12,701 nt of DNA from Candidatus Latescibacterota bacterium (GTDB lineage: Bacteria; JAAXHH01; JACQVL01), in assembly GCA_016209865.1 (NCBI GenBank), contig JACQVL010000112.1:1-12701 (forward strand), read 5' to 3'. Below the pieces are notes generated by a model, which saw only the letters and a program-made list of their open reading frames with translations, had not been told where the DNA came from and did no database searches. Both the position numbers and the translations under genes were made by a program. Below, one piece after another: positions 2 to 11,533 of the stretch (position 1 is its first letter; every line of letters begins with the position of its first letter).

Positions 2-346
2 GCGCCCTACAAAGACTTAAGATTCGATAACGCCTATACGTTCACGAAAGTGAACGACGTCTACTACTCTGGGACGATGCACGAGGAGAACCAGCCCTGC
101 CACCTCGTCATCACGAATGAGGATATCTGTAACACCCGGTGCAAAGAAGAGTACGGGAATCCCTGCCAGCACTTCTGTCCGGCGAACGTCTACGAGATGG
201 TGGCTCAGGACGACGGGGAGACCCGTCTCCAGCTCAACCCGACCAACTGCGTCCATTGCAAGACGTGCGACATCATCGACCCGTACCAGATCATCACCTG
301 GGTGACACCCGAAGGCGGCGGCGGACCGAATTATAAAAACTTGTAG
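2..346 (+). CDS. Electron transfer flavoprotein:ubiquinone oxidoreductase, C-terminal fragment
   Basis: This is the 3' end of a gene that begins left of the window; 114 residues are visible. In the family, ETF-QO passes electrons from reduced ETF through FAD and one [4Fe-4S] cluster to the quinone pool at the membrane. The visible part is the ferredoxin-like C-terminal domain. It has a Cys in a CPANVYE context at fragment residue 59, then CVHCKTCD (Cys 83, 86, 89), matching the four cluster ligands of the human enzyme in order and nearly in spacing. The tail [12 protein letters not shown] is the family's conserved ending. Extra cysteines ([13 protein letters not shown]) precede the CP motif. 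The FAD and quinone domains lie outside the window. Its TAG stop is also the start of the heptamer repeat element that follows. Confidence 0.93.
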
Positions 347-447
347 GCAGTGGGCAGTCCCCGCACAGCCCCCCTGCCCCACCGGGCAGTAGGCAGTGGA
401 CGGGGGAACGGCTTCTACTGCCCATTGCCCACTGCCCACCTGCCCGG
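344..447. repeat. Heptamer inverted-repeat element A (unit GCAGTRG)
   Basis: The gap between ETF-QO and the PPK2 gene holds degenerate 7-nt tandem units. In the left part these are GCAGTGG and GCAGTCC at 347-360, and GCAGTAG and GCAGTGG at 386-399. In the right part the complementary units CTACTGC, CCATTGC and CCACTGC run 415-435, followed by CCACCTGCCCGG. Left and right parts are in opposite orientation and could fold into a long imperfect hairpin around a loop at about 400-414. The first unit overlaps the upstream TAG stop (344-346). No gene is supported here. Origin and function are unknown. Confidence 0.8.
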
Positions 448-473
448 TGAAGGGGCCAGGGGGAGAGGCTGCA

Positions 474-478
474 GGGAG
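474..478 (+). promoter_or_regulatory. Shine-Dalgarno that decides the PPK2 start
   Basis: GGGAG lies 7 nt upstream of a GTG at 486. The open frame runs back to a GTG at 396, but the extra 30 codons translate repeat element A and have no family resemblance. This site therefore favours the 486 start. Confidence 0.6.
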
Positions 479-485
479 CCACACC

Positions 486-1217
486 GTGCTCGAAACCCTC
501 GACCTGACGAAGAAGTTGGCGGATAAGAAAGAGTATGAAGAAGCCCTGAAGAAGTACCAGCTCCGGCTTCTGGAATGCTGGCAACGGATCAGGAAAAAAG
601 GCGTCCCCGTCCTCCTCGTCTTCGAAGGGTGGGATGCCGCCGGGAAGGGTGGGGCGATCAAGCGAGTGACCGACCCCCTCGACCCGCGCGGCTACCAGGT
701 CAGCCAGGTCGGCCCGCCGTCCCCGGATGAACTCGCCCATCACTACCTGCGCCGGTTCTGGATTCGGCTCCCCCGGCGCGGGCAGATCGTCCTGTTCGAC
801 CGGTCATGGTACGGGCGCGTCTTAGTCGAACGCGTGGAAAAGTTCGCCACGAAGGAGGAATGGAAACGCGCCTACGACGAGATCAACACGTTCGAGCGGA
901 TGCTCATCGACGGCGGGACTGTCCTGATGAAATTCTGGCTCCACATCAGCAAGGACGAGCAACTGCGCCGGCTGAAGGAACGGGAACAGAACCCGTACAA
1001 ACGATGGAAGATCACGGAGGATGATTGGCGCAACCGGAAGAAGTGGGGGAAGTACGAGGCGGCGGTCGAGGGCATGCTCGAACGGACGAACACCGACTAC
1101 GCGCCATGGACGCTCGTCGAGGGCAATTATAAATGGTACGCCCGGATCAAGGTCATCCGGACGATCACGGAGACGCTGGGCGAACGGCTGACGATGAAGT
1201 GGATGGACGAGACCTGA
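486..1217 (+). CDS. PPK2-family polyphosphate kinase / polyphosphate:nucleotide phosphotransferase
   Basis: A 243-residue cytoplasmic kinase that, by family, moves phosphate between polyphosphate and nucleotides. The P-loop reads GWDAAGKGG (residues 48-56) and the Walker B region LFDRSWYGR (103-111). The lid module PYKRWKITEDDW spans about 170-181, with a basic run just after it. The context RSWYGRVLVERV resembles class II (polyphosphate:AMP phosphotransferase-like) members more than class I or III. Many class II proteins are two-domain fusions, whereas this is one domain, so the exact acceptor (AMP, ADP or GDP) is uncertain. I chose GTG 486 for its Shine-Dalgarno; a GTG at 396 would add a repeat-encoded leader. 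A perfect hairpin follows the stop. Confidence 0.9.
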   Translation: MLETLDLTKKLADKKEYEEALKKYQLRLLECWQRIRKKGVPVLLVFEGWDAAGKGGAIKRVTDPLDPRGYQVSQVGPPSPDELAHHYLRRFWIRLPRRGQIVLFDRSWYGRVLVERVEKFATKEEWKRAYDEINTFERMLIDGGTVLMKFWLHISKDEQLRRLKEREQNPYKRWKITEDDWRNRKKWGKYEAAVEGMLERTNTDYAPWTLVEGNYKWYARIKVIRTITETLGERLTMKWMDET

Positions 1218-1221
1218 GTCC

Positions 1222-1244
1222 GCCCGCCCATCGAATGGGCGGGC
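1222..1244 (+). terminator. Hairpin after PPK2, probable terminator
   Basis: A perfect 10-bp GC-rich stem (GCCCGCCCAT at 1222-1231 with ATGGGCGGGC at 1235-1244) and a 3-nt CGA loop begin 4 nt after the PPK2 stop. No T-tract follows, so intrinsic termination is not certain; it may act as an mRNA 3'-end stabiliser. Confidence 0.55.
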
Positions 1245-1255
1245 TGATCGTACCA

Positions 1256-1270
1256 AGCCCTTGCGGGGCT
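1256..1270 (+). terminator. Second small hairpin before the M28 peptidase gene
   Basis: AGCCC (1256-1260) pairs with GGGCT (1266-1270) around a 5-nt loop, and a pyrimidine-rich stretch (CCGCTCTTTCT) follows. It is weak alone but lies 12 nt after the stronger hairpin in the only gap between two plus-strand genes. Confidence 0.3.
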
Positions 1271-1292
1271 CCGCTCTTTCTGACGGAATCTT

Positions 1293-2849
1293 ATGCGACA
1301 CACCATCCGTATCCTTGCGCTTACAGTACTGCTCCCGCTCGTCGCCTGTCGCACGGATGAACAGCATCCGTACAGCCAGGCCGGGATTACCGGGCAGGAA
1401 CTCCTGTATCACATCCGGTACCTGGCCTCTGATGAGCTGGGCGGGCGGCTGTCCGGGACGCCGGGCGCAGACCAGGCGGCGCAGTACATCGCACGGGAAT
1501 TCCAGCGGTACGGCCTCCGGCCGGCCGGGGATGATGGGGAATGGCGGCAATCGTTCGACTTCGTCGCAGGACTGAAGGTCGGCGCACACAACCACCTCAC
1601 CGTGACGGCCGGCACGCAGACGACGTACACCGCCGGGACCGACTACCTGCCCCTCGCGTTCTCGTCGACCGACACGGCGGACGGGTCGGTCGTCTTCGCC
1701 GGGTACGGCATCGTCGCGCCGGAGATGGGGTATGACGATTATCAGGACATCGACGTGAAGGGGAAGATCGTCCTCGTCCTCCGGTACGGCCCGGACGGGA
1801 CGAGCCAGCGTGGGGAGTTCGGGCGGTACATCACGCTGCGAAATAAAGCAGTGACCGCACGGATGAGAGGGGCCGCCGGTCTGCTGATCGTCACCGGCCC
1901 GGAGAGCACGGAGGCGGACGCCCTCGTCCCACTCCGGCAGGACCCGCTCTTCACCAGGGCGGGACTCCCGGCGGCGAGCATCTCGCCGAACGTGGCAGCC
2001 GAGATCCTCAGTGCGGCTGGGATGACCCTCCAGGACATCCAGCGTCACATCAACCAGGAACGGCGCGGGGCGCCGTTCGCCATCCCCTCCATGCGCGTGA
2101 CCCTCTGGACGGATATCGTCAAGGAGTGGCAACAGACGGCCAACGTCGTAGGACTCCTGCAAGGGACAGAGAAGGCACAGCAAGGCCAGGTGATCGTCAT
2201 CGGCGCGCACTACGATCACTTAGGCCTGGGCGGCCCCAGCTCGCTCGCGCCCCGGGACGGCGCGATCCATCACGGCGCGGACGACAACGCCTCCGGGACG
2301 GCCGGCCTCCTCGAACTCGCGCAGGTGTTCGCCGCCCACCGGAAGGGACTGAAACGAAGCCTGCTCTTCATCGCCTTCTCCGGTGAAGAGGAAGGTTTGC
2401 TCGGGTCGGCTCACTACGTCAAGCATCCGTCGATTCCTCTGGCAAAGACCGTCGCCATGATCAACTTAGACATGATCGGCCGGCAGCGGGGACGGACGCT
2501 GATCGTGCACGGGACGGGCACCGCGACGCAGTGGCAGGACCTGCTGAACCGGCTCAATCAGTCAGCGTTTGAGCTGCAGTTCAAGGCCGACGGGTACGGG
2601 CCGAGCGACCACACGTCGTTCTACAATCAGGATGTTCCGGTGTTGTTCTTCTATACCGGGACGCACGAGGATTATCACAAGCCGTCCGACACGCCGGAGA
2701 AGATCAACGTCCAGGGAGAACAGGGAATCGTCGAATACGTCTACCGGGTCGTGAGTGAGATCGACCGGCTTCCCGACCCTCCGGCGTTCGTACGCGTCCG
2801 GACGGGCGAATCCCCCGCCGGGACCGGCAGCGGGTCTCGGTCACCATAA
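1293..2849 (+). CDS. Lipoprotein M28-family metallopeptidase with PA-like insertion
   Basis: A 518-residue exported di-zinc aminopeptidase-type enzyme. Residues 1-18 form a lipoprotein signal ending in LVA with Cys19, so it should be lipid-anchored to an envelope membrane. Residues about 115-230 (VVFAGYGIVAPE, VKGKIVLVLRYG, GAAGLLIV) look like a protease-associated domain. The M28 core is complete. It has AHYDH (His306), HHGADDNASG (Asp330/331, bridging), SGEEEG (Glu365 general base, Glu366 zinc), NLDMIG (Asp393), and EDYHKPSDT (His462). Substrate is unknown, but peptide scavenging is typical for the family. The Shine-Dalgarno is weak (CGGAAT region), but the ATG directly precedes the signal peptide. 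It stands alone between a hairpin and repeat element B. Confidence 0.93.
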   Translation: MRHTIRILALTVLLPLVACRTDEQHPYSQAGITGQELLYHIRYLASDELGGRLSGTPGADQAAQYIAREFQRYGLRPAGDDGEWRQSFDFVAGLKVGAHNHLTVTAGTQTTYTAGTDYLPLAFSSTDTADGSVVFAGYGIVAPEMGYDDYQDIDVKGKIVLVLRYGPDGTSQRGEFGRYITLRNKAVTARMRGAAGLLIVTGPESTEADALVPLRQDPLFTRAGLPAASISPNVAAEILSAAGMTLQDIQRHINQERRGAPFAIPSMRVTLWTDIVKEWQQTANVVGLLQGTEKAQQGQVIVIGAHYDHLGLGGPSSLAPRDGAIHHGADDNASGTAGLLELAQVFAAHRKGLKRSLLFIAFSGEEEGLLGSAHYVKHPSIPLAKTVAMINLDMIGRQRGRTLIVHGTGTATQWQDLLNRLNQSAFELQFKADGYGPSDHTSFYNQDVPVLFFYTGTHEDYHKPSDTPEKINVQGEQGIVEYVYRVVSEIDRLPDPPAFVRVRTGESPAGTGSGSRSP

Positions 2850-2854
2850 CATAG

Positions 2855-2941
2855 GAACGATGAACGCGGAATGATGAACGATGAAGAAAAGGCCTTTCTC
2901 ACGAGGGTTTCTTCGTTTTCATTCATCATTCATTATTCATA
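2855..2941. repeat. Heptamer inverted-repeat element B (unit GAAYGAT)
   Basis: Five 7-nt units run 2855-2889 (GAACGAT, GAACGCG, GAATGAT, GAACGAT, GAAGAAA). They are mirrored by ATTCATC, ATTCATT and ATTCATA at 2921-2941. GAATGATGAA (2869-2878) pairs with TTCATCATTC (2922-2931), and the inner GAAGAAA (2883-2889) can pair with TTTCTTC (2908-2914), giving an imperfect hairpin. The element starts 6 nt after the M28 peptidase stop and ends against the Rieske gene's ribosome site. It is open in the Rieske frame, so gene finders may extend that protein into it. Confidence 0.8.
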
Positions 2942-2942
2942 C

Positions 2943-2949
2943 AAGGAGG
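2943..2949 (+). promoter_or_regulatory. Shine-Dalgarno of the Rieske ferredoxin gene
   Basis: AAGGAGG is followed after 8 nt by ATG 2958. This fixes the start there rather than at the ATG at 2871, which lies inside repeat element B and would add 29 non-homologous residues. Confidence 0.8.
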
Positions 2950-2957
2950 CAGACTCG

Positions 2958-3266
2958 ATGGGGCAATACGTCAAAGCAGCGACGACCGATGAACTGCAGG
3001 CAGGACAGGGGAAATTAGTGGAGATAGAAGGGAAGGAAATCGCGCTGTTTCACGTCGACGGCCAGTACTACGCGATCGAGAATACGTGCACGCATCAGGG
3101 CGGCCCGCTGTGCGAGGGGGAATTGGAGGGCACGGAAGTGATGTGCCCGTGGCACGGCGCCCGGTTCGACGTCACCAGCGGCGCGGTCCTGTCCCCGCCA
3201 GCCTACATGGGGGTGACCAGTTTCCCGGTCCGGGTCTCGGCATCGGATATTGAGATAGAGGTATAA
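2958..3266 (+). CDS. Rieske-type [2Fe-2S] ferredoxin (small, soluble)
   Basis: A 102-residue cytoplasmic Rieske protein with the ligand pattern C-x-H-x16-C-x2-H: CTH at Cys44/His46 and CPWH at Cys63/His66. GQYYAIENTCTHQGGPL and CPWHGARFDV are close to the dioxygenase-ferredoxin/NirD-like family. No signal peptide or transmembrane segment is present, so it is not the quinol-oxidase (bc1) type. Such proteins carry electrons to an oxygenase or are the small subunit of a reductase, but no oxygenase or reductase lies nearby, so its partner is unknown. A strong AAGGAGG 8 nt upstream supports this start. The gene converges with the metal transporter gene. Confidence 0.92.
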   Translation: MGQYVKAATTDELQAGQGKLVEIEGKEIALFHVDGQYYAIENTCTHQGGPLCEGELEGTEVMCPWHGARFDVTSGAVLSPPAYMGVTSFPVRVSASDIEIEV

Positions 3267-3292
3267 ACGGCACGTTCCACCACGGTGTCCAT

Positions 3293-3360
3293 GTAGGGGC
3301 GAAACATTCGCTGATCAGAACGAGCACCTTCAAAGCCATAGGCGAATGCTTCGCCCCTAC
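3293..3360. repeat. Inverted repeat between convergent genes (GTAGGGGCGA family), possible bidirectional terminator
   Basis: The left arm GTAGGGGCGAAACATTCGC (3293-3311) and the right arm GCGAATGCTTCGCCCCTAC (3342-3360) are complementary over 19 positions with a single mismatch. The loop is 30 nt. The element fills most of the gap between the Rieske stop (3266) and the transporter stop (3363-3365). A perfect 10-nt palindrome, TGTTATAACA (3361-3370), abuts it. The first ten bases of the arm recur at the end of the DUF4331 gene. The position suggests a shared 3'-end structure. Confidence 0.75.
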
Positions 3361-3362
3361 TG

Positions 3363-5588
3363 TTATAACAACATTCCCCCGATCTGCCACGCCAGAAACA
3401 GACCAAACCCCACGCTGAACACCCCCGCCAGCGCCCGGACTGTCATGTTCAGCCGGCTGAACCGTTGCGCGGTCATCGCAAACGGCAGGCCGACGAGCGT
3501 GCTCATCACCAGCATCCCGCCGATCGACCCGATTCCGAACACCCCGATGTAGATCAGCGCGAGGGTGCGCGACGGGATGGTGACGAGGACGAGCAGCATC
3601 AACGCCGCGCTCCCCGCTAACCCGTGCACCATGCCGATGAAGAACGGCTTCGTCCCCAGCCGGACCGGATGATGGGAGTGCGCGTCCGTCCCCGCCGTCC
3701 CCTCGTGCAGGTGCGGATGGACGTGCCAGTGCGCCCCGTGTTCGTGAGAATGGACGTGGAGGGTGGCCCCGCGAATGAGCTTCCGGATCAGATCCACGCC
3801 CAACACGACGAGCATCACTGCAACCGCGAACTCTAACGCGAGGGCGAGCCGATCCGGAATCCGCAGGTTCAACGCGACGACGACCAGACCGACCACCAGC
3901 AATGCCGCCGTATGCCCCAGTCCCCAGAGCGCCCCGACGAGGGATGATCCGAACACCCCCTTCCGCTCGCTCACGATCGTCGTGACGGCCACTAAGTGAT
4001 CTGCGTCGAGCGCGTGCTTCAGGCCCAGGACGAAGCCGAGGCCGAGGGTCGACCCGATGGCGGTGTGGGTGAGGCCGTCGAACACCGCCTGCGCGTTGAG
4101 CACTCCCGCCTGGACGAGGCCCTGCCCGACGATGAACAGTCCGGCGATCGAGATGACTCCAGCGCTCACGACGGGCAGTCCGCTCACGACCGGATGACGC
4201 ATGCTCATTCCGTCGAACACCCGCCGCGCGCGGACCATCACCAGCCCGATCCCGGTCAGCACCCCCGCCAGGCCGAGGCTGAACGCGACGATCAACAGCA
4301 GGCCGAAGCCGACACGATGCATGGCGATCGCGCCCAACAGGACGACGAGCGCGGATGGACACGGCAACAGTCCGCCCGACACACCCAGGGCGAGCAGGCT
4401 GCGCCAGGTCACCGGCCGGCCGTCCGCGCCGGGCGGCAGATGCGAATGTCCGTGATCATGGACATGATCGTGGTCATCGTGTGTGTGATGATGATGGTCA
4501 TGATCCTGTCCGAACAGGTTCCGCAGCCGGCTGAAGAAGAGCGAGACGCCGAGGACGGCAACGATCACACCCGACGCCACACTCAGCCACGGGTACAGCC
4601 GTTCCGGGAGGATGAATTCAGACGCGTACAGCGTGATCAGGCCGAGCGCAAACACACCCGACGTGTGCGTGGCGGTGACCGTCAGCCCCAAGAACAGCGC
4701 ATGGGTGGCCGTCCCGCGCGCGCCGACGAGGTACGCGCCGACGATCGTCTTGCCGTGACCGGGGGAGAGGGCGTGCAACGCCCCCAGGCCGCAGGCGACG
4801 AGGAGCGCCCACAGGATGAAGCGCGGGCTGAGTTTCCGCGCGGAGACCAGGTCGGCGAACGTGTCCTTCGACCGCTCCGCCGCCCGCTGGCCGAGCGACC
4901 CGATCCCACTCCACCCTCCGTTCTCCGCTCCGAACACGAACGCCACTCGGGCAGTCCGCACGTTCAGCGGGCTCGACAGCATGTCCTGAGGATACCGCCG
5001 CAGCTCGTCACTCTCGTCCCGGTCGGGCACGGTCGAGGTTTGAATCGTCACCCCCGGCATCGCCTGGACGACGATCTCCCGCCAGCCGAGCCGGTCGGGC
5101 TCGTTCTCGTCCCGGTACTCCACCTCATGCCCCGCCGTCGCGGGTTTTCCTGACGCCGAACCCGGCACGAGCGCCTCGAACACGACCCGCATCCGCAGGG
5201 TCAACAGTCCTCCCTGGCCGGGCGGAAACTCGATCTGGCGCGACCGCATCATCAGTTGAACAGGCTGCTGATCGGCCCAGAGACGGAGTCCCTGTTGAAC
5301 CTCATCCACCTTGACGGTCAAGAACAAGGTCTTCTCGTCCTCACTCGTCACCCCGTTCTCGTCTGTGTCCATCCCCTGGAGTGCCTGGAACGTCGGAATC
5401 TCCGCCATGTCGACGATGTACACGAGACGGATCGTCCCGCCCGACTGGCCGGCCGCCGGGCCGGAGAGTTCGAGCCGGCTGTACAGGTTGACGGTGAAAT
5501 TGCCGAGCGGGTGGGTGAAGGCGGGGCGTGGAATGATGAGCAAGCAGGAGAGAAGACAGCAGAGGGGGAAAGACCGAACGAGACGCAT
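3363..5588 (-). CDS. Metal (Ni/Co-type) transporter: periplasmic domain + NicO/RcnA-like half + NiCoT/UreH-like half
   Basis: A 741-residue membrane protein. Residues 1-25 are a signal peptide, with mature start near HPLGNFTVN. Residues 26-255 form a periplasmic beta-rich domain with an EF-hand-like loop (Asp74, Asp76, Asn78, Gly79, Ser82, Glu85). The NicO-like half (about 256-455) carries HALSPGHGK at 272-280 and a His/Asp-rich loop at 362-383. The second half (about 465-741) carries HALDADH at 525-531, the HX4DH signature of nickel/cobalt permeases. It also has GLGHT at 556-560, a second His-rich loop at 611-640 and GMVHGLAGS at 652-660. By family it moves Ni or Co; direction is unknown because RcnA exports and NiCoT imports. 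A GAGGAAG 9 nt upstream of the ATG lies inside the preceding TPR gene, 6 nt away, so they are one operon. I see no break, so this looks like a real fusion. Confidence 0.87.
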   Translation of the reverse strand: MRLVRSFPLCCLLSCLLIIPRPAFTHPLGNFTVNLYSRLELSGPAAGQSGGTIRLVYIVDMAEIPTFQALQGMDTDENGVTSEDEKTLFLTVKVDEVQQGLRLWADQQPVQLMMRSRQIEFPPGQGGLLTLRMRVVFEALVPGSASGKPATAGHEVEYRDENEPDRLGWREIVVQAMPGVTIQTSTVPDRDESDELRRYPQDMLSSPLNVRTARVAFVFGAENGGWSGIGSLGQRAAERSKDTFADLVSARKLSPRFILWALLVACGLGALHALSPGHGKTIVGAYLVGARGTATHALFLGLTVTATHTSGVFALGLITLYASEFILPERLYPWLSVASGVIVAVLGVSLFFSRLRNLFGQDHDHHHHTHDDHDHVHDHGHSHLPPGADGRPVTWRSLLALGVSGGLLPCPSALVVLLGAIAMHRVGFGLLLIVAFSLGLAGVLTGIGLVMVRARRVFDGMSMRHPVVSGLPVVSAGVISIAGLFIVGQGLVQAGVLNAQAVFDGLTHTAIGSTLGLGFVLGLKHALDADHLVAVTTIVSERKGVFGSSLVGALWGLGHTAALLVVGLVVVALNLRIPDRLALALEFAVAVMLVVLGVDLIRKLIRGATLHVHSHEHGAHWHVHPHLHEGTAGTDAHSHHPVRLGTKPFFIGMVHGLAGSAALMLLVLVTIPSRTLALIYIGVFGIGSIGGMLVMSTLVGLPFAMTAQRFSRLNMTVRALAGVFSVGFGLFLAWQIGGMLL

Positions 5589-5594
5589 GAGAGA

Positions 5595-6959
5595 TTACTT
5601 CCTCAGGCTGACAGACGACTTGGAACGTCCGCGGAGCCGTGCAAGCGTCCGGCCGGCAGTGTCGGCGTGCCGGACCGAGAACTGAGGGTTGATCGACAGG
5701 CACTGATCGAGGTACATCCGGGCCTGCTCGACGTCGCCCAATCGCTCACAGATCATCCCCGCATGGAACAGGAGGAGCGCGTCCTTCGTGCCCAGCCGGA
5801 GGGCTTTCCGTGAGGCGTCGAGGGCTTCACGCGGCTGGCCTGATTTGTACAGCGTCCAGGCCAGGACGTCGGCGGCGTAGATGCTCGGCCTCTGTGCCAT
5901 CGCCCGGCGCGCGCGGGCGACCGCCTCCGGGAGCCGGGACTGATGGTCGGCGTCGAACAACGCCATCTCCATGTCCATCTCGACCCCGTTCGCCCGGTAG
6001 AGCTGTTCCATCGCCCGGACGAGTTCATACTGCTGTGCGGCTTTAGCGGTCTGTCCAGCGGCCTGATAGACATCGCCGAGAGCAATCACGTATTCCGGCA
6101 GCGGGACGGACTCGACGGCTTTCGTGTACAGGATGATCGCCCCTTCGTAGTCTTTCCGGGCGGCCAGCACCCGGGCCAGGCCGGCCAGGGCGTGCACGTA
6201 GTTGGGCAGGGTCGCGACCGCCTGCTGGTACTCCGCCACCGCCTCATCGAGCTGTCCGGAATTAAAATAGAGGTGGCCGAGTTGTACCCGGCACCACTGG
6301 GTATTCTCGGCGGCCGGGCCTCCGGCGGCGACCGCGCTCTTCATCGCCTGGATAGCCCCCTCGACATCCCCGAACAACTCGCGGACGTGTGAGACCCGCG
6401 AGTACGAACTCAGGTCAGGCCGCAGGTTGACCATCCGCTGGATCGTCTCGGCCGCGTTCGGGTACTCGCCCAGTTCGACGTACGCGTCCCCGATCACCCC
6501 GTACGCGCGCGCTGAATACAGGTTCATTTTTTGTGCGCGCTGGCCCCAGTCGAGCGCCTCTCGGAACTGGTGCCGGGCTAAACACAACGTCCCCATCACG
6601 CTCATCGCGTCGTCGCGCTGTGGCTGGAGGTCGAGGGCCTTGCGGAGGACGCCTTCCGCCTTCGTGTAGTACGTCGGATCGCCCGTCTCCCGCGCCTTCT
6701 GGAGGTACACGTCCCCCAACTGCACGAGCGCCTGGGCGTCGGTCGACTTGATGCGGAGCCGTTCCTGGAGGGCGTTGATGAGTTTGTCCGTCGATGACCA
6801 CGCCGCTCCACGGGTCACGCGGCTGAACAGCTTCTCGACGAGCGGGTTCGTCCTCGCCTGCTGGCGGACACGTTCTCTCGCCCATCGAAGCCCCAGCGCT
6901 CCTCCAATTAATACCCCGATGACCGCGCACACAAGAGTAATTCTGTTTCGTCGGCTCAT
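5595..6959 (-). CDS. Membrane-anchored TPR protein
   Basis: A 454-residue protein with one N-terminal membrane segment (residues about 7-24, after MSRRNR). The remainder is tetratricopeptide repeats from about residue 73 to 430. The clearest helical pairs are near 116-183 (AMSVMGTLCLARHQFREAL; AYGVIGDAYVELGEYPNAA), 223-290 (VQLGHLYFNSGQLDEAVAEY; ALAGLARVLAARKDYEGAI) and 364-430. TPR proteins act as protein-protein scaffolds and no enzymatic motif is visible. The positively charged start suggests N-in, C-out topology, with the repeats on the periplasmic side. It lies between the DUF4331 gene (118 nt) and the transporter gene (6 nt), so a role in assembling or presenting those proteins is plausible but inferred. 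The ribosome site is weak. Confidence 0.88.
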   Translation of the reverse strand: MSRRNRITLVCAVIGVLIGGALGLRWARERVRQQARTNPLVEKLFSRVTRGAAWSSTDKLINALQERLRIKSTDAQALVQLGDVYLQKARETGDPTYYTKAEGVLRKALDLQPQRDDAMSVMGTLCLARHQFREALDWGQRAQKMNLYSARAYGVIGDAYVELGEYPNAAETIQRMVNLRPDLSSYSRVSHVRELFGDVEGAIQAMKSAVAAGGPAAENTQWCRVQLGHLYFNSGQLDEAVAEYQQAVATLPNYVHALAGLARVLAARKDYEGAIILYTKAVESVPLPEYVIALGDVYQAAGQTAKAAQQYELVRAMEQLYRANGVEMDMEMALFDADHQSRLPEAVARARRAMAQRPSIYAADVLAWTLYKSGQPREALDASRKALRLGTKDALLLFHAGMICERLGDVEQARMYLDQCLSINPQFSVRHADTAGRTLARLRGRSKSSVSLRK

Positions 6960-6995
6960 AGATGTTCTCGACGGCGTAGAAAACCGTCTGACATG

Positions 6996-7030
6996 ACAGT
7001 GGCTGCGAGCCTCTCACCCGCAGCCACTGT
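6996..7030. terminator. 12-bp perfect hairpin between DUF4331 and TPR genes
   Basis: ACAGTGGCTGCG (6996-7007) pairs perfectly with CGCAGCCACTGT (7019-7030) around an 11-nt loop. On the minus strand it follows the DUF4331 stop and a second hairpin, ahead of the TPR gene start at 6959. There is no clear T-tract, so it may be a weak terminator or a transcript processing or stabilising structure that tunes expression between the genes. Confidence 0.5.
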
Positions 7031-7055
7031 GTCTCTCCCCTTTTCGCCCCGATGC

Positions 7056-7081
7056 GGGCGACCACAGAGGGTCGCCCCTAC
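7056..7081 (-). terminator. Hairpin on the DUF4331 stop codon (GTAGGGGCGA family)
   Basis: GGGCGACC (7056-7063) pairs with GGTCGCCC (7070-7077) around a 6-nt loop. Read on the minus strand, the element starts GTAGGGGCGACC, and that TAG (7080-7078) is the stop codon of the DUF4331 gene. Its first ten bases match the arm of the inverted repeat at 3293-3360. Likely a 3'-end structure derived from a dispersed repeat. Confidence 0.55.
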
Positions 7082-8847
7082 TTCACCAACAACATCTTCC
7101 GGGCTTCGATCGTCCCGCCCGATTCGATCCGGTAGAAGTAGACGCCTGAGGCCACGCGTGCGCCGTTGTCGGTCAGGCCGTCCCACCGCACCGTGTAGTG
7201 GCCGGCAGTCTGCACGTCATCGATCAGCGTACGCACCTGCTGGCCCGCCAGGTTGTAGACGCGCAGGGTCACCTTCCCCGGCTTGTGAATCTCGTACTGG
7301 ATCGCCGTCTCCGGGTTGAACGGGTTGGGGTAATTCTGCTTCAACGACGTCTTCTTCGGCAGCCCCTGACTGCTGGAGGCCGAATTGATCCCCGTCGGCC
7401 CGCCCTCGACCCGGTGGTGCTGGTGGACGTACCCCTGGTTAGGATTGGCCATGTACGGGAAGGTCGGGAGAAATTCCTGGTCGTTCCGGTCGACCCCGTC
7501 GCCGAGTTGATTGTTGGGGGCGATGTTGAACTCCGTGGATGACGGGTTAAACGTCTTCCAGAGCACCCCCGCGACCGCCTGGAGCTCGATATCGACGATG
7601 TCGTCGAACAGACGCCGGCCGTTGGGGAAGCCGGCGTTATCCCCGGAGAGCACCCCGCGCCGCTTCGGGTTGGTGGTCGTCGGCGGGATGGCCATGTTCA
7701 GGCGCATCTGCTCCGACGGCGTCTGCGTATCCTGCGGTCGCTGATTCAACCCAGGCACCCCCGTCAGGAACACCGCCACTAAGTCGTTGCGCGACCCGGA
7801 CGGGACACTCACCCCGTAGAGAGCGTTCAGGAGTCCGGCCAATTCCGGCGTGGTCACGTAGTTGAGGAATTGTACGTGCTCCGCCGGCGTGACCGCATTC
7901 CACAGGTCTTTCTTGCTGAGCGGGATGACCACTTCGTTGACGAGCGGCATGCCCAGCTCCGATACCTGGACCCAGTTTCCCGACGCCGACCGGGTGCCAT
8001 CCGTGTTGATGACCGTCGTCGCCTTCCGGCTGGCGGTCGACCAGACGCCGATGACGGCGACAGAATCCGCCGCGCCGGACGGCGCGGCACCCGTCCGGGT
8101 GAGCTTGCTGATGGGGGTCTGGATGGCGATCGCGTGGCAGTTGTACCCGCCCAGGCCGTCGATCCCGAACCCCTGGTTGCCCGGCGCGCCCGGCCGGATC
8201 GTCAGCAGGTCGAACACCGCGCCGAGGTCGACGAAGAACGGATCATCCCGCTGCCCGGCGAAGACCTTCGTGCTGTCCGTGCTGGGTCCGATATCATACA
8301 CCCCCGCGTTGCTCAACGTCAGGTAATCGCCCGTCGATTTCGGCCCGATGTTGGCCGGGGGTACGGTCAGGCCGGAGCCGAGGACGGTCGAGGCGGTTTG
8401 CACCCCGCCCACCGAATCGATCCGCGTGACCGTATACGTCTGCTTCACGTTCCAGTCTGAGTCGGTCAACGAACCGATCGCCCCGGTGTTATACAGGAAG
8501 GTATTCCCGTTGGCCGTCGTCGTCGTGAACTCAAACCGGTAGGTGACGTGCGCGTGGGCATCACCCACGTTGTCGACTTTGATCTCATACCGGACATCAT
8601 CCCCGAATGCGTTGAAGTTCGGGCCGCCGGCGGGTTCCTCCATCGGGATGAACGTGGCGATCAACGTCACCGTATTGGGTTTATCTGGACTGACGAACCC
8701 ATAGATGTCCAGGTTGTCCGCCAGGGGGTCATTACTGATGATCGGCGCCTCGCGATGACTGGAAGCGCCCGTGAAATGGGGCGAGAGACTCACAGCCAGC
8801 ACGAACGCGACGATGGCCAGCGCGACAACAATCCCGACTCTCTTCAT
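7078..8847 (-). CDS. Secreted DUF4331 protein with T9SS/FlgD-like C-terminal domain
   Basis: A 589-residue exported protein of unknown function. A signal peptide covers residues 1 to about 28. The DUF4331 opening SSHREAP (29-35) and DNLDIYGFVSPD (44-55) follow directly, and the domain runs to about residue 480. A Ser-rich linker leads to an 85-90 residue type-A sorting domain starting QNYPNPFNP (504-512) and ending GVYFYRIESG...KMLLVK. In FCB bacteria this tail commonly directs outer-membrane secretion by T9SS or is a FlgD-Ig-like fold; the T9SS machinery itself is outside the window. The start at 8847 is set by a strong AGGAGGAG and signal peptide; the frame runs further back, but only into repeat element C. 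It is the first gene before the TPR protein and transporter. Metal binding is a guess from context. Confidence 0.9.
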   Translation of the reverse strand: MKRVGIVVALAIVAFVLAVSLSPHFTGASSHREAPIISNDPLADNLDIYGFVSPDKPNTVTLIATFIPMEEPAGGPNFNAFGDDVRYEIKVDNVGDAHAHVTYRFEFTTTTANGNTFLYNTGAIGSLTDSDWNVKQTYTVTRIDSVGGVQTASTVLGSGLTVPPANIGPKSTGDYLTLSNAGVYDIGPSTDSTKVFAGQRDDPFFVDLGAVFDLLTIRPGAPGNQGFGIDGLGGYNCHAIAIQTPISKLTRTGAAPSGAADSVAVIGVWSTASRKATTVINTDGTRSASGNWVQVSELGMPLVNEVVIPLSKKDLWNAVTPAEHVQFLNYVTTPELAGLLNALYGVSVPSGSRNDLVAVFLTGVPGLNQRPQDTQTPSEQMRLNMAIPPTTTNPKRRGVLSGDNAGFPNGRRLFDDIVDIELQAVAGVLWKTFNPSSTEFNIAPNNQLGDGVDRNDQEFLPTFPYMANPNQGYVHQHHRVEGGPTGINSASSSQGLPKKTSLKQNYPNPFNPETAIQYEIHKPGKVTLRVYNLAGQQVRTLIDDVQTAGHYTVRWDGLTDNGARVASGVYFYRIESGGTIEARKMLLVK

Positions 8848-8852
8848 AGGGC

Positions 8853-8860
8853 TCCTCCTG
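8853..8860 (-). promoter_or_regulatory. Shine-Dalgarno of the DUF4331 gene
   Basis: On the minus strand, CAGGAGGA ends 5 nt before ATG 8847-8845. It rules out the upstream alternative start at 9048, which lies in repeat element C. Confidence 0.8.
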
Positions 8861-8976
8861 TGAGGCAATGATAGAAGAAAATAAATTGGACAGGGAAGAA
8901 CGAGAAATTGCAGGCGCGTCCTGCTTATGAGTACGCAAATTTTTAGCGGACGGATTTCTGGCGGGGAATAAAACCC
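8861..8976. other. Leader/promoter region of the DUF4331 gene, no gene seen
   Basis: This stretch is visibly more AT-rich than its surroundings, as expected for a promoter. A small hairpin, GCAGG-CGCGT-CCTGC, sits at 8910-8924. On the minus strand TATCAT (about 8867-8872) resembles a -10 box, but no matching -35 is seen at 16-18 nt, so I do not call a promoter site. Confidence 0.35.
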
Positions 8977-9120
8977 GGGGTTCGGGATCCGGGGTACGGG
9001 GTTCGGGAGGAAAATCCAGGGTACGGGAGACGGGGTACGGGAAAACAAAACCAGAGGAATCTACCGTCTGCTTTCCGTTTTTCCCGTACCCCGAATCCCT
9101 AACCCCGAACCCCGAGTCTT
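8977..9120. repeat. Heptamer inverted-repeat element C (unit GGGGTWC / GGGATTC-like)
   Basis: On the plus strand, units GGGGTTC, GGGATCC, GGGGTAC, GGGGTTC and GGGAGGA run 8977-9011. A second block (AGGGTAC, GGGAGAC, GGGGTAC, GGGAAAA) runs 9018-9045. The opposing arm has GTACCCC, GAATCCC, TAACCCC and GAACCCC at 9086-9113. The inner arms CGGGGTACGGGAAAA (9031-9045) and TTTTCCCGTACCCCG (9079-9093) are perfectly complementary. The right arm touches the stop codon of the hydroxyacid dehydrogenase gene (9122-9120). Confidence 0.82.
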
Positions 9121-10175
9121 TACCCGGCCGGGACCTCACCCCGGCGCATGCGGACGTCGATCGCCTCTGGGGTGAGACGCGCGAAGGGGGGGTCTCCACG
9201 GAGGAGCCGGACGAAGTCATCGACGATGATATCCACGGCGCGCAGGTTCGCGTCCCGCGTCCGTCCGGCGATGTGGGGGACATGGATGACGTTCGGCCGG
9301 CCGCGCAGCGGGTCGTCCACGGGCAGGGGTTCGACGTCGTACACATCGAACGCCCCGGCCAGTTCGTCCGCACAGATGCGTTCCCGGAGGGCGTCCATGT
9401 CGATCCCGTGGGCGCGGGTGACGACGACCACGATCCCCCCTTTCCGGAGCCGGTACACCCGCTCGGCCGAGACGATCTTCGTCGCAGATGGGGTCGGGGG
9501 CACGGTGATGAACAGCACCTCGGCCTCGTCAACGAGCGCATCTAAGCTGACAGGGTCGGCGCCCCACTCCCGCGCGACGGCGACGGGGATGAAGGGGTCG
9601 TAGCCCACGACCGTCGCCCCGAGCGCGGCGCACCACCGGGCAACCCGCCGGCCGATCTGGCCCAGGCCAACGACCCCCACCCGCTTCGTGCCGAGGTCGC
9701 CGTTGACGAACCGCGCGTCGTCGCAGAACTGATCCGCTTCGTACTGCCACAACGTCTCGCCCGCCGCCATCCGGCCGTGCCACCACGGGACTCGTCGCAG
9801 CGCACAGAGCGCAAGACACAGGCCGAGTTCTGCCACGGACTGCGCCCAGCCGCGCGTGCTGTCGATAATCGGAATCTCCCGTGCGAAGAGCGTATCGACC
9901 GGAAGGCCGAACCCGGCGTTGTCCGTCACCGCTCCGACCATCCGGAGCTGCGGGGCCGCCGCGATACACGCCGGGGTGAGGACCGGACCTCCGAAGAAGC
10001 TGATCAGCCCGACGACCCCGCGCAGGTCGGTCTGTTCATGGACGGGCGTCTGACGGTCGGTGTTGAGGACGATCAACTCCCCCAACGCGCCGAGCCGGGC
10101 CGCCACCCGGTCGGGGACGAACGGCCAGCGTTGCTCCAGGTCGGGCGAACGGACGAAAAGGAATCGATGAGACAT
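9120..10175 (-). CDS. D-isomer-specific 2-hydroxyacid dehydrogenase family protein
   Basis: A 351-residue cytoplasmic NAD(P)-dependent oxidoreductase of the D-2-hydroxyacid dehydrogenase family, interconverting a 2-keto acid and its D-2-hydroxy acid. The Rossmann motif GLGQIG is at 170-175, and the second-strand acid Asp193 (GYDPF) suggests NAD preference. The catalytic set is Arg254 (TRAHGIDMDAL), Glu282 (YDVEPLP) and His301 (HVPHIAGRT). Arg254 is followed by Ala rather than the usual Gly. The substrate cannot be read from sequence; glyoxylate, hydroxypyruvate or a sugar-acid-derived keto acid are possible given the enolase-superfamily neighbour. AGGAG lies 6 nt before the ATG. It is separated from the upstream gene by repeat element D, so it may have its own transcript. 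Confidence 0.9.
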   Translation of the reverse strand: MSHRFLFVRSPDLEQRWPFVPDRVAARLGALGELIVLNTDRQTPVHEQTDLRGVVGLISFFGGPVLTPACIAAAPQLRMVGAVTDNAGFGLPVDTLFAREIPIIDSTRGWAQSVAELGLCLALCALRRVPWWHGRMAAGETLWQYEADQFCDDARFVNGDLGTKRVGVVGLGQIGRRVARWCAALGATVVGYDPFIPVAVAREWGADPVSLDALVDEAEVLFITVPPTPSATKIVSAERVYRLRKGGIVVVVTRAHGIDMDALRERICADELAGAFDVYDVEPLPVDDPLRGRPNVIHVPHIAGRTRDANLRAVDIIVDDFVRLLRGDPPFARLTPEAIDVRMRRGEVPAG

Positions 10176-10193
10176 AAAAGGCTCCTGTGAAAA

Positions 10194-10359
10194 TTTTGGA
10201 TTTTAGATTTCGGATTTTGGATTGGGACTGCAGAGCAGGAGCAGGAGACAGAACCGGGACGGATCGCTGATCCTCCACCATCGATCATGTTTCCGCCAAT
10301 ACCGTAGCCCTCTTGATCGTTCGATCCAAAATCTAAAATCCAAAATCCAAAATAACCCA
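10194..10359. repeat. Heptamer inverted-repeat element D (unit TTTTRGA)
   Basis: Units TTTTGGA, TTTTAGA, TTTCGGA, TTTTGGA and TTGGGAC run 10194-10228. The opposing arm TCCAAAA, TCTAAAA, TCCAAAA, TCCAAAA and TAACCCA runs 10325-10359. The arms are strongly complementary and flank a 96-nt centre containing a small GGATC-GCT-GATCC hairpin (10261-10273). No coding signal is seen in the centre. The right arm ends one base before the stop codon of the enolase-superfamily gene (10363-10361); the left arm ends next to the ribosome site of the hydroxyacid dehydrogenase gene. Confidence 0.85.
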
Positions 10360-10360
10360 A

Positions 10361-11533
10361 TCATCTCCACTCTCCCACCGCATACCGTCGTACGGCGGTG
10401 TCATCCAGCTCAACGCCGAGTCCGGGACCGGTCGGCACCTGCGCCCACTCGCCCTCAAACCGGATCGGATCGACGATCAGATCGTCCTCGCGCAGGAAAT
10501 TGCCGATCAGGTCGCTGCCGAGCGTGCAGTTGGGCATCGCCGCCGCGGCATGGACGGCGGCCATGTCCAGAATCCCCAGATCGACCTCGCTCCCGTGCCA
10601 GACGGGAATCCCGGCCATGTCGCACACCGTCGCCATCCGGATGAACGCGCTCACCCCGCCGCTGATGTTGACGTAATCGACCGCGTCCCGCTTGATGGCG
10701 GTGATCAGGTGGCGTTCCGTCCCCCCGTACGGGAGGTGGATGTGGAACGCGACGGGGATAGACAGCATCCGACGGAGACGGACGTACCAGTCGATGTTCC
10801 ATTGCGGGACGGGGCTCTCGAACATCGCGATGTTGTAGCCGTCCAGGCGTCGGGCTAAGCGGATCGTCTCCGCGGGCCGGTAGAACCGCTCGTTCGGGTC
10901 GAGGTTGAGGGCGAGGCGATGTCCGACGGCGTCGTGGATGGCCTGCACACGCTCGACGTTCGGGTCTTCCAAGGCGCACTTAAATTTGAGGCCGGTGAAT
11001 CCCTTCGCCACCGCGTCCCGGGCAATCCGTGCGATGTCTTCCGGCGTCCGCTGGCCCGTCCAGTAATCCACCCGCACCCGATCCCGGCACCGGCCGCCTA
11101 ACAGGTGATGGACGGGCACGCCGAACGCCCTGCCGAGCAGGTCGTACAGGGCGACCTCGAACCCGATGTACGCGCGGTCATACGGGAACGGCAACGCTCG
11201 CAAGTCGAGCCGTCGCGGATCGCAGCCGATGAGCGCGGCACGGTTCCGCTGGATCGACGCCCACGACGCGGCGCGGAACGTCTCCCCTACCCCAACCACC
11301 CCATCATCCGTCTCGACCCGCAGGATGAACTTCACCAGGTCGTCGAAGTCGCTCAGCAGGCCGCCCATCGCGTGCGGGCCGGTCCCCTGACTCGCCGTCG
11401 CGTCATACGCCAGTTGGCCCTGCGCCGCGTCCCGTTTCCCGGCCGCGGGAGGTTGGTCGTATTCCGGACTGTTCACCGTGTCCGGGTGCATCGGGACGAT
11501 GACGGGAATGGCGGTGATGTGCGTGATCGTCAC
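10361..11533 (-). CDS. Enolase-superfamily (mandelate racemase/glucarate dehydratase-like) protein
   Basis: A 390-residue TIM-barrel enzyme of the enolase superfamily, which abstracts a proton alpha to a carboxylate; sugar-acid dehydration is the likeliest role. The capping domain covers about 1-140. The KxK base motif is Lys183/Lys185 (GLKFKC). Metal ligands are Asp212 (LNLDPNE) and Glu239 (MFESP), with His264 (IPVAFHIHL) where an acidic residue or Asn is usual. A His313/Asp286 pair (WHGSEVD; AVDYVN), 27 residues apart, matches the mandelate-racemase dyad. I chose GTG 11533 because it forms a GTGA overlap with the SDR stop and has GGAGG 4 nt upstream; an earlier in-frame start would run through the SDR gene. 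The substrate is unknown. Confidence 0.88.
   Translation of the reverse strand: MTITHITAIPVIVPMHPDTVNSPEYDQPPAAGKRDAAQGQLAYDATASQGTGPHAMGGLLSDFDDLVKFILRVETDDGVVGVGETFRAASWASIQRNRAALIGCDPRRLDLRALPFPYDRAYIGFEVALYDLLGRAFGVPVHHLLGGRCRDRVRVDYWTGQRTPEDIARIARDAVAKGFTGLKFKCALEDPNVERVQAIHDAVGHRLALNLDPNERFYRPAETIRLARRLDGYNIAMFESPVPQWNIDWYVRLRRMLSIPVAFHIHLPYGGTERHLITAIKRDAVDYVNISGGVSAFIRMATVCDMAGIPVWHGSEVDLGILDMAAVHAAAAMPNCTLGSDLIGNFLREDDLIVDPIRFEGEWAQVPTGPGLGVELDDTAVRRYAVGEWR
11530..11533 (-). promoter_or_regulatory. GTGA start/stop overlap (translational coupling)
   Basis: The GTG start of the enolase-superfamily gene and the TGA stop of the SDR gene share bases on the minus strand, with GGAGG just upstream inside the SDR gene. 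This implies translation by re-initiation on one mRNA. Confidence 0.8.

Follow-up and report, generated by a model that had tools for sequence, protein, structure and literature searches.

Introduction

Intergenic hairpins built from heptads, that is, from degenerate units repeated at a 7-nt period, are a kind of element that is already known, since reports from Xanthomonas, from the Nostoc trnL intron and on heptanucleotide repeats of other genomes describe relatives of it. In Xanthomonas, degenerate heptads of the type GGGAATC (GGGANTN) form about 180 intergenic arrays per genome, mostly of four units, and 70-75 convergent inverted pairs per genome (Rehm et al. 2015, PMC4692102). In the trnL intron of Nostoc, the P6b stem is invariably built from TDNGATT (Class I) or NNTGAGT (Class II) heptads, and NNTGAGT has repeatedly been replaced by TDNGATT (Kaasalainen et al. 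2015, PMC4476775). Cyanobacterial heptanucleotide repeats, known as short tandemly repeated repeats (STRR), and TAACTGA repeats were described by MacGregor (2015, PMC4679880). Here we analyze four inverted heptad repeats, elements A to D, in a stretch of 12,701 nt (the window) from a draft genome of a Candidatus Latescibacterota bacterium (contig JACQVL010000112.1; 3.75 Mb in 356 contigs, 83% complete). In our judgement A to D are probably members of several coexisting, non-autonomous, dispersed families of intergenic hairpins of about 80-200 nt, comparable to REPINs, which are paired repetitive extragenic palindromic (REP) sequences, and to miniature inverted-repeat transposable elements (MITEs).

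The elements of this genome resemble the Xanthomonas GGGAATC type in two ways: degenerate intergenic arrays of period 7 occur in excess, and convergent inverted pairs form hairpins. They differ in that several families share one genome, arm lengths favor two values and outer ends lie directly at stop codons, whereas the accessible text of the Xanthomonas paper deals with one word family, emphasizes G-quadruplex potential and yielded no mention of the dispersal of units. The word of element D (TTGGATT/TTAGATT/TGCGATT) literally matches the TDNGATT of Nostoc P6b, and this is true of the GATT family to which D belongs. In both cases a stem is built of heptads and alternative words serve in one role and replace each other, although P6b is one locus within a group I intron and the elements here are dispersed and intergenic, lying between protein genes and not inside a group I intron. 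The earlier note on this window did not know cyanobacterial STRR heptads as inverted pairs with locus-specific words; heptads in inverted pairs do have precedents, both in Xanthomonas and in Nostoc P6b. The likeness to STRR and TAACTGA repeats lies in intergenic heptads near gene boundaries with stop codons in every repeat frame. However, those repeats are reported as direct arrays (the BOGUAY genome has a single inverted case), and TAACTGA occurs mostly just before start codons (PMC4679880). In the open-licence literature we did not find a description of the multi-family form in one genome, of a near-fixed polarity across words, of registration to stop codons or of the sharing of heptad hairpins across phyla.

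Results

Heptad families in the genome

The genome was surveyed in 1.0 Mb of sampled stretches, to which the counts below refer unless another scope is given, with other periods and a first-order Markov sequence as controls. The survey gave 258 period-7 arrays, while periods other than 7 and its multiples gave 0-30 each and the Markov control none at period 7, so that the comparison of periods proposed by the earlier note came out for period 7. Contigs that were not selected by content carry 204 such arrays per Mb, which corresponds to about 770 in the whole genome. The words are few and common to many loci: GATTTTG (65 arrays), AGTGACG (61), GGTGGTC (24), GGGGTTC (22), AGGGGTC (21), AAGGACG (18) and others. 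All four words of the window belong to dispersed families that are also present on other contigs, with 7 arrays on 7 contigs for the word of A, 4 on 3 for B, 30 on 21 for C and 63 on 32 for D, all outside the window. The claim that each word is specific to its locus was therefore wrong. In the whole draft genome, word D gave 138+130 exact matches versus 6+1 for a control, and 182+166 versus 56+68 for the reversed control when one mismatch was permitted.

The strict 7-nt period asserted in the earlier note holds in A to D and not genome-wide, where minor octamer families with the words AACGTTNN and AGCAGAGG exist. These are degenerate intergenic arrays of period 8 (L039 57-135, L111 2149-2235, L076 855-897 and others), and AGCAGAGG is also seen as an inverted pair in this genome, which makes them parallel families of another period.

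Arm geometry and pairing

The layout is a G-rich heptad arm, a loop and a C-rich reverse-complement arm. Neighboring arrays run from G-rich to C-rich in 60 of 69 cases and in the opposite order in one. Arm lengths cluster at about 24 nt and at about 30-33 nt, which corresponds to three or four heptads and a further three or four bases. By inspection the arm ends are consistent, with the outermost and innermost units mostly canonical, and it is the interior units that vary, chiefly from G to A, as in the TTG-TTA-TTG-TTG of the GATT family. An inverted partner is found on the inner side of 135 of 235 strong arms, while the three control sides or orientations gave 3, 3 and 4. All 52 same-family pairs fold below a z of -4.6 (median -7.3). 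Taken with the location at gene ends described below, the fixed period, the quantised arms and the partner lying almost only on the inner side strongly support the single shared architecture that the earlier note had proposed.

Arms are no more similar within a locus than between loci (0.956 for both in the GATT family, permutation p 0.55), which means that the stem arises from membership of a family and that compensatory changes within the locus are not its source. Arms of one family are interchangeable between loci, and locus-specific compensatory pairing is rejected. Families can also nest, in a recurrent arrangement in which a GGTGGTC arm is followed by TAARAATC-like bases and then by an AGTGACG arm. 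At one locus (L125 2623-3877) inverted nested half-elements with these two arms enclose a small gene and a gene for a TrmB-like methyltransferase, as if the two genes were seated in the loop, so loops can be long. At another (L048) a PhyH gene is flanked by GATT arms.

Elements A to D

Repeats of the window were scanned by period-autocorrelation, with Tandem Repeats Finder in agreement. Autocorrelation found six period-7 arrays, every one within elements A to D, and the enrichment is restricted to period 7 (plus 14 and 21), the other periods giving essentially none. The parts of the elements are as follows.

343-358, + strand: element A, left (G-rich) arm of GCAGTGG heptads, overlapping the TAG stop (344-346) of the upstream gene
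384-400, + strand: element A, second G-rich heptad array (GGGCAGTAGGCAGTGGA), which vies with the first for the right arm
417-440, - strand: element A, right (C-rich) arm of ACTGCCC heptads
2855-2885, + strand: element B, left arm of GAAYGAT heptads, beginning 5 nt past the stop codon that ends at 2849
2919-2940, - strand: element B, right arm, ending 17 nt ahead of the ATG (2958) of a Rieske gene, directly before AAGGAGG
8976-9007, + strand: element C, left arm of GGGGTTC-family heptads
9019-9042, + strand: element C, extra G-rich array in the loop
9083-9115, - strand: element C, right arm, ending 4 nt from the stop (9120) of the minus-strand gene 9120-10175
10193-10223, + strand: element D, left arm of GATT(TTN GATT)n heptads, 17 nt upstream of the start codon (10175) of that minus-strand gene
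10324-10353, - strand: element D, right arm, ending 7 nt from the stop (10361) of the minus-strand gene 10361-11533

The four inverted repeats reported in the earlier note do exist. Their arms pair over 343-358 with 417-432 in A (88% complementarity), 2869-2890 with 2917-2938 in B (82%), 8976-9000 with 9083-9107 in C (92%) and 10193-10222 with 10324-10353 in D (90%). The two-arm layout given there stands, except that A and C comprise three arrays each. The predicted RNA folds have energies of -56.7 kcal/mol for A (z -3.2 against dinucleotide shuffles), -27.9 for B (z -4.2), -79.2 for C (z -5.4) and -57.2 for D (z -4.7), and none of 200 shuffles folded as well as any of the four, so the pairing of the arms also survived the comparison with shuffled sequence that had been suggested. 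An Rfam search of the window matched no family.

The window holds other inverted repeats that are not heptad-based. A fifth intergenic one (GTAGGGGCGAAACATTCG...CGAATGCTTCGCCCCTAC) lies at 3293-3361 between two convergent genes, with a related half (GGTCGCCCCTAC) near 7070-7081, and a GC-rich hairpin (CCCGCCCATCGAATGGGCGGGC) lies at 1218-1245 immediately past the stop codon of a PPK2 gene.

Position relative to genes

Gene positions come from simple home-made gene calls, and exact distances carry some error. The midpoint lies outside called genes for 224 of 293 arrays. Among gaps of 60 nt or more, an element is present in 40-45% of those between co-directional or convergent genes and in 22% of the divergent ones (Fisher p 0.007). 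Most arms that face the end of a gene either begin 0-8 nt past its stop codon or provide that stop codon themselves at -5, -12 or -19, which are 7-nt steps. The median distance from stop to arm is 5 nt, compared with 23 nt under random placement in the same gaps. All four elements of the window conform to this, with stops at 344-346, 2849, 9120 and 10361. On the opposite side the arm often halts just ahead of a ribosome-binding site, as in B and D. The tendency towards the stop side is weaker at the loci with elements from other phyla, where the median is 16 nt.

Loops and dispersal

Some copies have a loop in common amid unrelated flanks, from which it follows that whole units disperse. In this genome, the alignment of L058 with L130 extends across about 108 nt, loop included (loop z 8.0), between flanks that are not homologous. 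The same is seen in Ereboglobus, where L245 and L250 have a loop in common and non-homologous flanks, and between Tolypothrix (L227) and Calothrix (L241), which share a loop plus short outer GGGRCTA heptads with unrelated flanks; the Calothrix element has many repeats within its own genome. A homologous interior between unrelated flanks is the manner of MITEs, and outside these three pairs most loops are unrelated. Loops thus seem to diverge faster than arms after dispersal. Another pair of otherwise homologous copies, L219 and L253, differs by an exact gain or loss of 7-nt unit length.

Among the loops that match more than themselves in the sample, several have in common unrelated dispersed palindromes such as TGGATTCCCGCTTTCGCGGGAATGACA. 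This palindromic repeat was observed in about a fifth of the loops of heptad hairpins (L034, L041, L049, L077, L086, L113 and others), and single loops that contain it have tens of matches each in the 1-Mb sample.

Distribution across bacteria

The search across phyla used the pattern GATTTTGGATT-N32-62-AATCCAAAATCY, and phyla were read from contig names. Among the matches listed were Cyanobacteria, Chloroflexi, Acidobacteria, Planctomycetota, Nitrospira, Deltaproteobacteria, Omnitrophota, Hydrogenedentes, Lentisphaerae and Ereboglobus, which we take to belong to the Verrucomicrobia, so that word D occurs as an inverted pair in about ten phyla among these matches. These loci carry additional heptad families, and 43 of 85 arms there have a partner on the inner side, versus 10-13 for the controls. 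In the order of our bacterium, one genome (G011) has the same word with 51 matches, another (G013) has other heptad words, and five sister genomes showed no arrays under light sampling of 23-95 kb each.

Two further observations concern this distribution. In the gap between carA and a STAS-domain gene in 12 cyanobacteria, alignment coordinates suggest strongly differing lengths, with about 26-385 nt between the flanking matches, and 3 of the 12 are compatible with absence of the element. A GATT-type inverted pair is also present on 10 IMG/VR contigs (L287-L296), which may be host flanks rather than viral, and the loop of one of them (L288) resembles those of Ereboglobus L245 and L250.

Discussion

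We propose that an enzyme requiring inverted heptad arms would copy the elements to new sites in the manner of REPINs and MITEs. They would persist mainly between a stop codon and the ribosome-binding site of the next gene, as insertions into coding DNA would be purged. The arms could be kept word-like by slippage of 7-nt units together with exchange among members of a family, while the loops drift. Transcribed, strong hairpins at gene ends would act like the REPs of E. coli by blocking 3' exonucleases and by stabilizing or defining 3' ends, and they might slow terminating ribosomes. REP hairpins are cited as stabilizing 3' ends (in PMC13289151) and as able to down-regulate translation when less than 16 nt from a stop codon (in PMC12306157), and RNA effects here are likely to be similar, though at most loci probably a by-product.

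Looking at the points that speak against dispersal as the origin of these elements is useful in judging how far it can be taken. About 43% of the arms have no detectable partner within 260 nt, and 34 of the 52 loops match only themselves in the sample, most loops being unrelated; together these confine the direct evidence that units disperse to a few pairs of copies. The elements are like MITEs in being non-autonomous inverted-repeat units that have dispersed with internal sequence in some copies. However, MITEs would lead one to expect target-site duplications and a parent transposon, and we found no excess of 4-8 nt flanking direct repeats. A search for an autonomous parent came to nothing, as only two far-apart same-family arm pairs in the sample enclose genes, and these are ordinary ones (PhyH and the TrmB-like methyltransferase) with no transposase inside. 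No Y1 (RAYT) transposase was found in the genome, which is 83% complete, and sister genera of the order are largely without elements.

That last transposase could have been missed owing to the incomplete assembly, in which case the elements would be ordinary REPs or REPINs moved by a RAYT. They do resemble these in being short intergenic repeats, inverted and convergent, that number in the hundreds and in many cases lie directly past stop codons, and each of the 18 element-bearing genomes tested among those reached from other phyla and cyanobacteria has Y1 transposases. Such proteins are common in genomes of this sort anyway, no Y1 was found in G013 with its other heptad words either, and the association is unsupported in our own genome. 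The arms also differ, being heptad tandems and not the GTAG/CGTC-tagged palindromes of most REPs (as described in the accessible text of PMC3733652); by inspection, no constant tag of this kind occurs in the listed arms of six families. We consider this explanation distinctly unlikely. Less probable still, and in our view very unlikely, is that replication slippage alone is at work, each locus expanding its own heptamer independently and an inversion yielding the second arm. Slippage does leave traces, such as the exact 7-nt unit difference between L219 and L253 and the runs of a variant unit (GTG GTG GTG) within one arm, and heptads are the commonest class of long simple sequence repeats in many bacteria (cited in PMC4679880). 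It does not lead one to expect a few words common to the genome and to several phyla, quantised arm lengths with a fixed polarity, or unrelated sites whose copies have a loop in common. Mobility accounts better than independent slippage for a patchy presence among relatives that goes together with identical words in distant phyla.

The hairpins could alternatively be selected directly as structures of 3' ends, as terminators, exonuclease blocks or ribosome stallers, with slippage an easy route to a stem and words converting among loci. The tight placement of arms past stop codons, the strong stems in all 52 pairs, the relative scarcity in divergent gaps and the interchange of two heptad words in the one stem of Nostoc trnL P6b (PMC4476775) speak for this. 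On the other hand, selection for a stem predicts neither the near-absolute G-rich-first polarity nor one word in about ten phyla among the matches listed. Nor does it sit well with so many unpaired arms or with a within-locus matching of arms that is not above the level of the family and so gives no sign of compensatory change. Intrinsic terminators in particular were considered and rejected, since a consensus scan gave fewer sites than in shuffles and flagged no heptad arm, the only call located in an element falling on a short loop hairpin of B (2901-2916). By inspection, the flanks of some families look A/T-rich. Overall we regard selection at 3' ends as unlikely to be the origin of the elements. 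The earlier note had left a choice between a common generating mechanism and selection for a hairpin. The shared architecture agrees with that statement, but hairpin selection alone leaves the recurrence of words across phyla unaccounted for.

Returning to dispersed hairpin families as the preferred explanation, the STRR heptads, the trnL P6b heptads, the Xanthomonas GGGAATC pairs and the TAACTGA repeats look like one phenomenon, with words, polarity and geometry common to about ten phyla among the matches listed. A tentative extension, which we hold to be rather unlikely, is that a class of small hairpin elements, recognized through degenerate heptad arms and copied by a dedicated machinery accepting several heptad words, has moved between phyla and supplies many of the gene-end hairpins of its hosts. 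The excess of heptads has been noted repeatedly without a settled cause, and the combination of unit dispersal, a near-fixed polarity and two arm lengths turns it into a testable question about an enzyme. In such genomes, gene ends and intergenic gaps are partly built of these elements, with some stop codons supplied by the elements themselves, which bears on annotation and on the interpretation of 3' untranslated regions.

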